Source: Mycobacteriales bacterium
GTDB lineage: Bacteria; Actinomycetota; Actinomycetes; Mycobacteriales; SCTD01
Direction: 5' to 3'
NCBI GenBank assembly: GCA_030447385.1
Contig: JAUJOY010000007.1
Location: forward strand, 25,120-89,119
Length of the DNA: 64,000 nucleotides
The notes beneath the pieces were generated by a model, which was not told where the DNA came from, did no database searches, and was given only the letters and a program-made list of their open reading frames with translations. Positions 43,210 through 55,154 of the stretch are shown here, in pieces. The first letter of the stretch is position 1. Each line of letters starts with the position of its first letter. Both the position numbers and the translations under genes were made by a program.

Positions 43210-44811
43210 CTACCGGGGGCTGGCTGGTCCTTCGGCCTCGACGCCCTGCCGCACCAGGCCCGTGGTGTAGGCCTCCTCGAGCGCCTGCCAGGAGGCCTGG
43301 ATGACGTTCTCGTGCACCCCCACCGTGTCCCACTCGGTGACCCCGTCGGAGGTCTCCACCAGCACCCGCGTGACCGCGTCCGTGCCGTGCTCACCGCTGA
43401 CGATCCGCACCTTGTAGTCCACCAGCTCCAGCCGCGCGAGGCCCGGGTAGAGCGACTCCAGCGCGGAGCGCAGGGCGGTGTCCAGGGCGTTGACCGGCCC
43501 GTTGCCCTCACCCGTCGCGACGATCCGCTCCCCCTTCGCGTGCAGCTTGACCGTCGCCTCCGAGACCACCTCTCCGGCGCGGCGCTCCACGATGACCCGC
43601 CAGGACTCCAGCCGGAAGAAGTACGGCCGCTCGCCCATCTCCTCGCGCAGCAGCAGCTCGAAGCTGGCCTCCGCGGCCTCGAAGCTGTAGCCGACCGACT
43701 CCAGGTCCTTCACGCGGTCGATCACCCGCAGCACCGTGTCGCGGTCCGGCTCCAGGCCGAGAGCCTTGCCCTTCAGCTCGATCGTGGCCCGGCCGGCCAG
43801 CTCGGACACCAGCAGCCGCATGTCGTTGCCCACCGCTGCCGGGTCGACGTGCTGGTAGAGGTCCGGGTCGGCCTTGATGGCACTGACGTGCAGACCGGCC
43901 TTGTGCGCGAACGCGCTCGCACCGACCCACGGCTGGTGGCCGTCCGGGGCGATGTTCGCCACCTCCGCCACCGCGTGCGCCACCCGCCCGAGCTCCACGA
44001 GCCGGCCGGGGGGCAGCACCGCACGACCGAGCTTGGCCTCGAGGGCAGCGACCACGCTGAACAGGTCGGCGTTGCCGCAGCGCTCGCCGTAGCCGTTGGC
44101 GGTGCCCTGCACGTGCGTCGCGCCGACATCGACGGCGGCGAGGGAGTTGGCGACGGCGCAGGCCGTGTCGTTGTGGGCGTGGATGCCGATCCGCAGCCCG
44201 GTGTCGACCATGGCCCCGACGACGTCGGCCAGCCGGTAGGGCAGCATCCCGCCGTTGGTGTCGCACAGCACGACGACGTCCGCGCCCGCCTCGGTCGCGA
44301 CGGTGAGCACCTCCAGCGCGTACGCGGGATCCGCGGCGTAGCCGTCGAAGAAGTGCTCGGCGTCCAGGAAGACCCGGTGCCCCTCGCCCGCGAGGTGCGC
44401 CACGCTGTCGCGGATCATGGCGAGGTTCTCCTCGCGCGTCGTCCGCAAGGCCCGCTCCACGTGGCGCACGTCGGCCTTCGCCACGAGGGTCACGACGCCG
44501 GCGCCGGACTCGCGCAGGTGGGCCAGATCGGAGGCGGTGCTGCCGCCCGGCCGGCGGGTCGAGCCGAAGGCCGCGAGCTGAGCCGACGTCAGCGACAGCT
44601 CGGTGCGTGCTCGCCGGAAGAACTCCGCATCCTTCGGGTTGGCCCCCGGCCAGCCGCCCTCGATGAACCCCACGCCGAGGTCGTCGAGGTGCCGTGCGAT
44701 CGCCAGCTTGTCGTTGACCGACAGCGACAGGCCCTCCCGCTGCGCACCGTCGCGCAGGGTGGTGTCGTAGACGTGGAAGGCGTCCGGGGGCACGTTCGTC
44801 GGGCCGGGCAT
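43210..44811 (-). CDS. cimA: (R)-citramalate synthase
   Basis: Condenses pyruvate and acetyl-CoA to citramalate, opening the threonine-independent route to isoleucine. The 533 residues begin with the LeuA-type TIM barrel (YDTTLRDGAQREGLSLSV, CDTNGGMLPYRL, GIHAHNDTACAVANSL, GTANGYGERCGN) and end with a LeuA-like regulatory domain. The lack of the LeuA RDGNQAL motif and the RDGAQREG motif identify CimA rather than a second LeuA. It follows ilvE with a gap of 40 bases. Confidence 0.92.
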   Translation of the reverse strand: MPGPTNVPPDAFHVYDTTLRDGAQREGLSLSVNDKLAIARHLDDLGVGFIEGGWPGANPKDAEFFRRARTELSLTSAQLAAFGSTRRPGGSTASDLAHLRESGAGVVTLVAKADVRHVERALRTTREENLAMIRDSVAHLAGEGHRVFLDAEHFFDGYAADPAYALEVLTVATEAGADVVVLCDTNGGMLPYRLADVVGAMVDTGLRIGIHAHNDTACAVANSLAAVDVGATHVQGTANGYGERCGNADLFSVVAALEAKLGRAVLPPGRLVELGRVAHAVAEVANIAPDGHQPWVGASAFAHKAGLHVSAIKADPDLYQHVDPAAVGNDMRLLVSELAGRATIELKGKALGLEPDRDTVLRVIDRVKDLESVGYSFEAAEASFELLLREEMGERPYFFRLESWRVIVERRAGEVVSEATVKLHAKGERIVATGEGNGPVNALDTALRSALESLYPGLARLELVDYKVRIVSGEHGTDAVTRVLVETSDGVTEWDTVGVHENVIQASWQALEEAYTTGLVRQGVEAEGPASPR

Positions 44812-52671: not shown

Positions 52672-53199
52672 CTAGGAGGCCGAGCGCAGCCGGGCCTCGG
52701 AGCCGGTCATGGACCTCGAGCCGCGGCCGACGGCGACCATCCCCGACTGGACGAGCTCGCGGATCCCGAACGGCTCGAGCACCTTGATGAGCGCCGAGAG
52801 CTTGTCGACCGTACCGGTGGCCTCGATCGTCACGGCGTCCGAGGCCACGTCCACGACCTTCGCGCGGAACAGCTGCACGGTCTCGAGGACGTGGCTGCGG
52901 GTGGTGAGATCGGCCTTGACCTTCACGAGCAGCAGCTCGCGCTGCACGGAGGTCGCCGGGTCCAGCTCGACGATCTTCAGCACGTTGACCAGCTTGTTGA
53001 GCTGCTTGGTGACCTGCTCGAGCGGCAGGTCCTCCACGGCCACGGCAATGGTCATGCGGCTGACCGCCGGGTGCTCGGTCGGGCCGACCGCGAGCGACTC
53101 GATGTTGAACCCGCGACGGCTGAACAGCGCCGCGACCCGGGCGAGCACGCCGGGCTTGTCCTCGACGAGCACGGAGAGGGTGTGGCGGGTGACGGCCAT
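52672..53199 (-). CDS. ilvN: acetolactate synthase small subunit
   Basis: Regulatory subunit that gives valine feedback control, 175 residues. The N-terminal ACT domain has TLSVLVEDKPGVLARVAALF and GFNIESLAVG; a second ACT-like half follows. ATG 53199 shares one base with the ilvB stop (TGATG), so the subunits are coupled. Confidence 0.95.
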   Translation of the reverse strand: MAVTRHTLSVLVEDKPGVLARVAALFSRRGFNIESLAVGPTEHPAVSRMTIAVAVEDLPLEQVTKQLNKLVNVLKIVELDPATSVQRELLLVKVKADLTTRSHVLETVQLFRAKVVDVASDAVTIEATGTVDKLSALIKVLEPFGIRELVQSGMVAVGRGSRSMTGSEARLRSAS

Positions 53200-54968
53200 C
53201 AGACGTCGTCCTCTCCCCAGACGGGGCGGGTGTCGCGGGCGGCCAGGATCTCGTCGTTGCTCGTGCCGGCGGCCACCATCGGCCAGACCATCGCGTCCTC
53301 GCCGACGACGAAGTCGACCACGACCGGGAGGTCGTCGATGGCCATCGCCTTCTCGATCGTCGCGTCCACCTCGTCCTTGCTCTCGCAGCGCAGCCCGACG
53401 CAGCCCATCGCGTCGGCGAGCTTGACGAAGTCCGGGATGCGCTTGGAGTTGAGGTTGGTGTTGCTGTAGCGCCCCTCGTAGAACAGCGTCTGCCACTGCC
53501 GGACCATGCCGAGGTTGCCGTTGTTGATGATGGCGACCTTGATCGGGATCCCCTCCATCGCGCAGGTGACCAGCTCCTGGTTGGTCATCTGGAAGCAGCC
53601 GTCGCCGTCGATCGCCCACACCGTCGCCTCCGGACGCCCGACCTTGGCGCCCATCGCTGCGGGTACGGCGTAGCCCATCGTCCCGGCGCCGCCGGAGTTG
53701 AGCCACGTGTAGGGGTTCTCGTAGGAGATGAACTGGCTGGCCCACATCTGGTGCTGCCCCACCCCGCTGACGTAGATGGCCTCCGGTCCGGCGATGGAGC
53801 CGATCCGGCGAATGACGTGCTGCGGCGCGAGCGATCCGTCCGGCGGGTCCTCGTAGCCCAGCGGGTAGGTCCGGCGCCAGCCGTCGACCTGCCGCCACCA
53901 GCCGGTGATGTCGGCGCGGGAACCGCTGTTGTAGACCTCCTGCACCGCGACCACCAGGTCGGCGATCGTCTCCCGGCAGTCGCCCACGATGGGCACGTCC
54001 GCAGCGCGGTTCTTGCCGATCTCGGCCGGGTCGATGTCGGCGTGGATGATCGCCGCGTGCGGCGCGAAGCTCGAGAGCTTGCCGGTCACCCGGTCGTCGA
54101 AGCGGGCACCGAGCGTGATCAGCAGGTCAGCCTTCTGCAGCGCGGTGACGGCGGCCACGGTGCCGTGCATGCCCGGCATGCCGAGGTGCTGGCGGTGGCT
54201 GTCGGGGAAGGCCCCCCGCGCCATCAGCGTCGTCACCAGGGGGATCCCGGTCAGCTCGGCGAGCGTGCGCAGCTCGGCGCTCGCCCGCGCCTTGAGCACC
54301 CCGCCCCCGACGTAGAGCACTGGGCGGGAGGCGGACGCGATCAGCCGGGCGGCCTCGCGGATCTGCTTGGCATGCGGCCGGCTGGTGGGCCGGTAGCCCG
54401 GCAGGTCCAGCGTCGTCGGCCACGAGAAGGGCCCGCTCGCCTGCAGGATGTCCTTCGGCAGGTCGACGAGCACGGGTCCCGGCCGGCCGGTGGCGGCCAG
54501 GTGGAAGGCGGCCGCCATCGTGTGCGGGATGTCCTCGACATGCTGGACGAGGAAGTTGTGCTTGGTGATGGGCATCGTGATGCCGACGATGTCGGCCTCC
54601 TGGAACGCGTCGGTCCCGATGGCGGCGCTGGGGACCTGTCCGGTGATGGCCACCATCGGGACGCTGTCCATGTAGGCGTCGGCGATCGGCGTCACCAGGT
54701 TGGTGGCACCGGGTCCGCTGGTCGCCATGCAGACACCGACCTTGCCGGTGGCCTGCGCGTAGCCCTCCGCGGCGTGCCCGCCGCCCTGCTCGTGCCGGAC
54801 GAGGATGTGCCGCACGGTCTTGGAGTCGAACAGCGGGTCGTACGCGGGCAGGATCGCCCCGCCGGGGATCCCGAAGACCACCTCGGCGCCGACCCGCTCG
54901 AGGGAGCGGACGAGTGCCTGGGCACCGGTCAGGGTCTCCTGCGGATGGGGCGGTTCGGGGCGAGCCAT
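53199..54968 (-). CDS. ilvB: acetolactate synthase large subunit
   Basis: Thiamine-pyrophosphate enzyme, 589 residues, first common step of valine/leucine and second-branch isoleucine synthesis. It has [18 protein letters not shown], the catalytic Glu in [24 protein letters not shown], and the TPP motif [12 protein letters not shown] with [15 protein letters not shown] 54968 is preceded by AAGGAAG; ATG 55013 in the same frame lacks a binding site and would lie just after the attenuator. Control by the leader peptide and terminator upstream is likely. Confidence 0.95.
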
Positions 54969-55030
54969 GGAGGTGCTTCTTCCTTGTTGCGGTCGTTCTA
55001 CGGGGCCGGTCATGGCGACGGGTTCTGGGC

Positions 55031-55063
55031 AAAAAAGAACCCCTCGTGCGATGCACGGAGGGG
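55031..55063 (-). terminator. attenuator terminator before ilvB
   Basis: On the minus strand CCCCTC, a bulged C, GTGC, a loop ATC, then GCAC and GAGGGG form a ten-pair stem, followed at once by TTCTTTTTT. This is a complete intrinsic terminator, rare in such GC-rich DNA. It lies between the leader peptide and the ilvB start. A second hairpin (GCGCG-CTGCC paired with GGCAG-CGCGC) just upstream of it could be a competing structure. Confidence 0.75.
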
Positions 55064-55091
55064 GAAGCGCGACTGCCGGAGGGCAGGCGCG

Positions 55092-55118
55092 CTAGGGAAC
55101 GACGAGGATCCTGGACAC
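55092..55118 (-). CDS. branched-chain amino acid leader peptide before ilvB
   Basis: An eight-residue frame, GTG to TAG, encodes VSRILVVP: Ile, Leu, Val, Val in a row, the three amino acids made by the operon. The GTG is six bases after the -10 box, so the peptide is probably translated from a leaderless mRNA. Stalling on these codons would change folding before the terminator at 55031-55063. Leaders of this type occur before ilvB in other actinobacteria. Confidence 0.75.
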   Translation of the reverse strand: MSRILVVP

Positions 55119-55124
55119 ACGACA

Positions 55125-55154
55125 ACAGTGCGTCAGGGCGCTGTGACCTGTCAA
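55125..55154 (-). promoter_or_regulatory. promoter of the ilvBN operon
   Basis: On the minus strand a perfect -35 TTGACA (55149-55154) is followed after 18 bases by a -10-like CACTGT (55125-55130). Transcription would start at or beside the leader peptide GTG at 55118. Confidence 0.6.

Follow-up and report, generated by a model that had tools for sequence, protein, structure and literature searches.

The leader upstream of ilvB on the minus strand of the window (the whole 64,000-nucleotide stretch of DNA analyzed here) is, as judged from its sequence and predicted structure, an actinobacterial ilvB leader of the type known from Streptomyces, Corynebacterium, and Mycobacterium. We regard it as likely that this element attenuates transcription of ilvB by sensing the ribosome on a leaderless peptide, and this degree of confidence applies to ribosome-mediated attenuation as such. 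The unexpected points are the absence of a structure competing with the terminator, the strict abutment of the upstream hairpin (P1) on the terminator stem (T), and the reuse of the leader at cimA and ilvA. The features of the locus are as follows.

55149..55154, minus strand: −35 element TTGACA, from sequence; in nearly all relatives, TTGACA or TTGACG stands 16–19 nt from the −10 box.
55125..55130, minus strand: −10 element CACTGT (nAnnnT), with a spacer of 18 nt and 6 nt 5′ of the GTG, from sequence; nAnnnT is kept in relatives.
55092..55118, minus strand: leader ORF GTG TCC AGG ATC CTC GTC GTT CCC TAG (VSRILVVP*), predicted to be leaderless, from sequence; homologous leaders occur in relatives.
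55098..55109, minus strand: control codons ATC CTC GTC GTT (Ile Leu Val Val), from sequence.
55066..55093, minus strand: hairpin P1, 28 nt, AGCGCGCCUGCC-CUCC-GGCAGUCGCGCU, from covariation in 7/12 pairs and folding.
55040..55063, minus strand: terminator stem T, CCCCUCCGUGC-AUC-GCACGAGGGG, separated from P1 by a 2-nt gap, from covariation in 8/11 pairs and folding.
55031..55039, minus strand: U tract TTCTTTTTT, from sequence.
53199..54968, minus strand: ilvB, acetolactate synthase large subunit (NCBIfam PRK07789, 1116.9 bits).
56888-55200, minus strand, 5′ of the leader: putative ilvD, so named by its product and position.

The leader is thus flanked by the ilvD ORF and ilvB, and further branched-chain genes follow 3′ of ilvB. 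The likely start codon of ilvB is the ATG at 54968, 63 nt after the U tract and with AAGGAAG 10 nt upstream of it; an alternative ATG lies at 55013. An earlier note on this DNA had placed TTGACA, a start codon, the peptide VSRILVVP, a hairpin, a terminator, and a U-rich tail within 124 bases, and all of them are present at exactly the coordinates it gave, on the minus strand, which it did not state. The CACTGT hexamer matches the actinobacterial nAnnnT −10 box, and its distance from the GTG (6 nt) is kept at 6–8 nt in relatives; from this conserved promoter-to-start spacing, transcription is predicted to start at or next to the leader GTG. The first two bases of the P1 5′ arm are the AG of the leader's UAG. 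Generic promoter and terminator scans returned nothing, since the −10 box departs from the E. coli form and T carries a bulge. An Rfam scan of the window gave only tRNAs above the gathering score, and anti-hemB at the leader was a chance match far below it. At the 3′ edge of the terminator, GGGUUC is complementary to GAACCC just past the U tract (55042-55020, minus strand); this alternative hairpin is present in the minimum free energy (MFE) structure of a longer transcript and also in L011, and is probably due to chance.

The conservation of the element was analyzed with ilvB loci gathered by protein search, in which leaders were then located by motif, and with a covariance model (R1) built on P1 and T. 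R1 matches the element in 226/297 genomes of the class, and in the window's own genome it gives a single match (E = 2e-15). The window scores 74 bits and the Streptomyces loci score 55–66 bits, indicating homology in both sequence and structure to the known members. Together with the short Ile/Leu/Val ORF and the terminator with its U run, this homology gives the window the features that define the actinobacterial ilvB leader (PMC1262725). The element was found in all 87 sources searched with R1, with L042 matched only at E = 0.2; L107, an ilvB-like locus, has no P1–T leader upstream. The predicted fold of the window leader is better than 198 of 200 shuffled sequences (z = −3.4). Among 42 sequences, changes on both sides were found in the P1 and T pairs counted in the list above, and cells with double changes numbered 84, as against 24 in shuffles; slid versions gave far lower values. 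On this sequence evidence, the element in the window is real, conserved, and functional-looking.

In the ilvB leaders, the five codons 5′ of P1 comprise 182 Val, 175 Leu, and 44 Ile codons of 595, and Val is present in 118/119. Val and Leu are thus nearly always found, and Ile is absent from close relatives such as VLSLLVVP, so that the sensing of all three products, described as notable, is not a conserved property. The eight-residue length, called minimal, recurs in 13/119 ilvB leaders and 10/36 cimA leaders, and 7-residue leaders also exist. The features praised in the note (eight residues, a leaderless start, and all three amino acids) are either commonplace or unconserved. Within the window's family, short leaders (VLSLLVVP, VLDLLVVP, VRHLLVVS, VLSVLVVP, and VLSTLVVP) coexist with longer ones (VPRILVVTQRDC and MRRILVVLQRDC); the Streptomyces leader is MRTRILVLGKRVG. 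The codon overlapping P1 is TAG in the short forms of the family and CAG or AAG in the long forms. Since the forms split at this codon, the eight-residue peptide is one base change from a longer form. Across the class, the stop codon, as counted from −4 to +30 of P1, lies either at the P1 base or further on (mostly 10–14 nt).

GUA accounts for 134/182 Val codons in ilvB leaders versus 1.5% in nine window genes, and AUU accounts for 48/82 Ile codons in cimA leaders versus 1.2% in the same nine genes; the dominance of these rare codons argues that they are read as sensors. GUA occurs near P1 in 122/123 ilvB leaders (L223, the sequence of which contains GUA, was counted among them), and the window alone among the 123 lacks this Val codon. 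At the usual position of GUA, the first control Val codon of the window (55103-55101, minus strand) is GUC.

A second copy of the leader is present in many genomes. Fifty regions around second and first copies were examined, and the downstream genes, identified by similarity and NCBIfam, were cimA in 36, ilvA in 2, and leuS in 3. The leaders of cimA, which encodes the isoleucine-specific citramalate synthase (L146-L153 and 28 of L219-L258; for example, VAQTLIIG, VSTQVIIT, and MNNGLLIIGRRAG), contain 82 Ile, 14 Leu, and 12 Val among the 180 codons at the five positions 5′ of P1, with at least two Ile codons in 35/36. The two leaders of ilvA (threonine ammonia-lyase; L231 and L257, from two genomes of one family) are VPQHLMIIN and VTVHEMAIT, both with Ile codons. 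Those of leuS (L226, L248, and L255) are MRRNLLLT, MRAANLLLTGPRRAS, and MNRALLA, in which 8 of the 15 codons counted in the same way are Leu, with no Ile and no Val. With Ile-Ile at cimA, Ile at ilvA, and Leu at leuS, the control codons follow the product of the gene, and this match at four genes, as read from the sequences, argues that codon sensing is real. We found no report of cimA or actinobacterial ilvA attenuators of the P1–T kind in the literature searched. The window's own cimA (43210-44811, minus strand), located approximately 40 nt after ilvE, has no P1–T leader; the cimA-type leader was therefore either lost or never present here.

The earlier note had described the hairpin upstream of the terminator as a competing one. 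This designation is not supported: P1 ends 2 nt before T, and both helices are present in the MFE structure of 215 of the 219 distinct leaders folded, at no cost to each other (median −1.1 kcal/mol for joint folding). When the window leader was folded in silico with a ribosome placed on any leader codon, every T pair kept a predicted probability of at least 0.96, except for the bulge-adjacent pair (~0.5), and P1 was predicted to form at every ribosome position that leaves its 5′ arm exposed. Because these calculations predict a stable T wherever the ribosome stands, no thermodynamic switch is visible. Mutual information across five anchored blocks revealed pairings within P1 and within T only, and no other helix covaries. 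Three candidate pairings were considered and rejected. The leader CCUCGU and the terminator ACGAGG could form a hidden antiterminator in 60/219 leaders versus 43–65 when leaders were swapped between species, with no covariation. P1 could be extended into the base of the terminator in 19/219 versus 16–32 in swapped controls, which is the level of chance. Pairing of the control codons with the P1 loop was found in 8/141 (swapped mean 3.8, maximum 9) and is absent in the window. A few lineages (L050, L052, L161, and L224) show complementarity between control codons and the P1 loop (CUUCGC/GCGAAG and alike), which may form an extra hairpin like H1 of C. glutamicum; overall, such complementarity is at the chance level. 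Like the classical trp-type attenuators, the element has control codons that match the pathway product (ilvB, cimA, ilvA, and leuS); an antiterminator mutually exclusive with the terminator was found neither in the window nor in its relatives. The arrangement of C. glutamicum, in which a hairpin shares ~3 bases with the terminator base, was likewise not found, the window having a 2-nt gap at this boundary. Hence, of the "complete attenuation system" announced earlier, homology and conservation give good support to attenuation by an intrinsic terminator and a predicted leaderless peptide with Ile, Leu, and Val, and the antiterminator that would exclude the terminator was not found here or in the relatives.

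The spacing between the two helices is strictly kept. The last P1 pair is followed by the first T pair after 0 nt in 143, 1 nt in 61, and 2 nt in 9 of 219 leaders, that is, 0–2 nt in 213/219, although the length of P1 spans 23 to 68 nt. Because R1, the model that placed these leaders, had been trained on such spacing, the counts may be somewhat biased toward abutment; as a counterweight, protein searches supplied the ilvB loci, and the element was present in almost all of the loci searched.

We infer the course of regulation, from the transcription start through the ribosome positions to the direction of the response and the steric step, as follows. RNA polymerase would start at or next to the GTG, and the ribosome would read VSRILVVP from the 5′ end of the RNA. 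The leading edge of a ribosome is located approximately 12 nt ahead of the A site. At this distance, a ribosome on Leu5 of the window leader extends to one base before P1, and one on the UAG extends to the final base of the 5′ arm. A shortage of charged Leu, Val, or Ile tRNA would stall the ribosome on the control codons with its leading edge before or near the P1 base, and P1 would form. When charged tRNA is plentiful, the ribosome would reach the UAG and cover the whole 5′ arm, so that P1 would not form and the terminator would stop transcription. Because a biosynthetic gene should be on in starvation, P1 most likely favors read-through; likewise, P1 is freed by the stalled ribosome and masked by the terminating one, and should therefore favor expression. 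Base-pair competition would be excluded as its route to read-through. Instead, the rigid P1 helix, flush (0–2 nt) with the terminator base, may hinder formation of the last T pairs in the RNA polymerase exit channel. We put forward this steric step, taken on its own, only tentatively, and no precedent for antitermination by abutment was found in the literature searched. In favor of attenuation, the stop codons sit where a terminating ribosome would mask the P1 5′ arm; against it, the window lacks the near-invariant GUA codon.

The known systems resemble the element in different respects. Branched-chain leader ORFs and terminators before ilvB were reported in Corynebacterium, Mycobacterium, and Streptomyces by Seliverstov et al. 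in 2005, who called the mode of regulation unclear (PMC1262725). A close likeness is to Streptomyces ilvL before ilvBHC (PMC8079986; PMC1262725), which is leaderless in S. lividans (PMC8079986) and shares with the window the I-L-V peptide, the P1/T core sequences, the abutment, and the gene; it differs in having 13 residues, a stop codon inside P1, a longer P1 loop, and GUA; in the window, by contrast, the stop is a UAG at the base of P1 and the corresponding Val codon is GUC. The leuS attenuator LeuL2 of Streptomyces (MRAVRLLLSEPR; PMC8079986, PMC1262725) has a leaderless peptide with, as in the window, product-specific codons followed by a terminator, but it has Leu codons only and precedes another gene, and an antiterminator was drawn for it in PMC1262725. 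In C. glutamicum ilvBNC and the Corynebacterium ilvB-II motif, which contains a BCAA-rich leader ORF and exerts regulation on a reporter, the start codon coincides with the transcription start or is one base away (PMC11857589; PMC10272879), and Leu-Val control codons, a terminator, and a hairpin directly 5′ of it are present as in the window. The C. glutamicum ilvBNC attenuator works by attenuation through three hairpins (PMC11857589), the first of which pairs with leader codons; its antiterminator and terminator are reported to overlap by a shared trinucleotide, an overlap that the window does not have. M. tuberculosis ilvB1NC likewise has a BCAA leader ORF and a terminator, and its induction is abolished by changing LVVI to AAAA (PMC13236596). 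A mutually exclusive antiterminator was proposed there, for which the folding of the window gives no support.

These systems also bear on the alternatives to steric hindrance. An antiterminator sharing terminator bases, either E. coli trp-like or through a boundary trinucleotide as in C. glutamicum ilvBNC, might form on stalling and have been missed here. The adjacent hairpins H2 and H3 of C. glutamicum with their three-base overlap (PMC11857589) and the exclusive pair proposed for M. tuberculosis (PMC13236596) speak for it, and pseudoknots or tertiary pairings would evade the methods used. We nevertheless consider it unlikely, as the window contains no such pairing, P1 and T coexist in nearly all leaders, the covariation signal is confined to these two helices, and the candidate pairings do not exceed their swapped controls.

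Alternatively, P1 may be only a pause hairpin that holds RNA polymerase and the ribosome in step, with read-through set by another contact, such as NusA, NusG, or direct ribosome–polymerase coupling. P1 would form immediately behind the polymerase and can coexist with T, and a pause role has been proposed for the first C. glutamicum hairpin (PMC11857589). Pausing alone, however, leaves the P1–T abutment unexplained, given the wide range of P1 lengths, and we regard this explanation as possible but rather doubtful. That T is a constitutive terminator, with a peptide that senses nothing and a DNA-binding regulator controlling ilvB, would fit the predicted stability of T in all states and the codon changes in the S. 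coelicolor leader, which were without effect as PMC1262725 cites them from Craster 1999. It appears very improbable, because the control codons track the product at four genes and codon mutants matter in both M. tuberculosis (PMC13236596) and C. glutamicum (PMC11857589).

Returning to steric hindrance by P1, its generalization would be a class-wide type of actinobacterial attenuator, whose antiterminator and terminator have no bases in common: a flush helix blocks the terminator sterically, the stop codon is placed for masking, and the module is reused with changed codons at ilvB, cimA, ilvA, and leuS; we offer this as a speculative possibility. For Actinobacteria, attenuation of ilvB is an accepted mechanism, of importance in M. 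tuberculosis and C. glutamicum, and the form described here is widespread and has no excluding antiterminator that can be drawn. The codon mutants of S. coelicolor, as far as they are reported through that citation, gave paradoxical results. The instance in the window is ordinary, yet it exposes a gap, and the abutment together with the product-matched control codons makes the question of switching testable.
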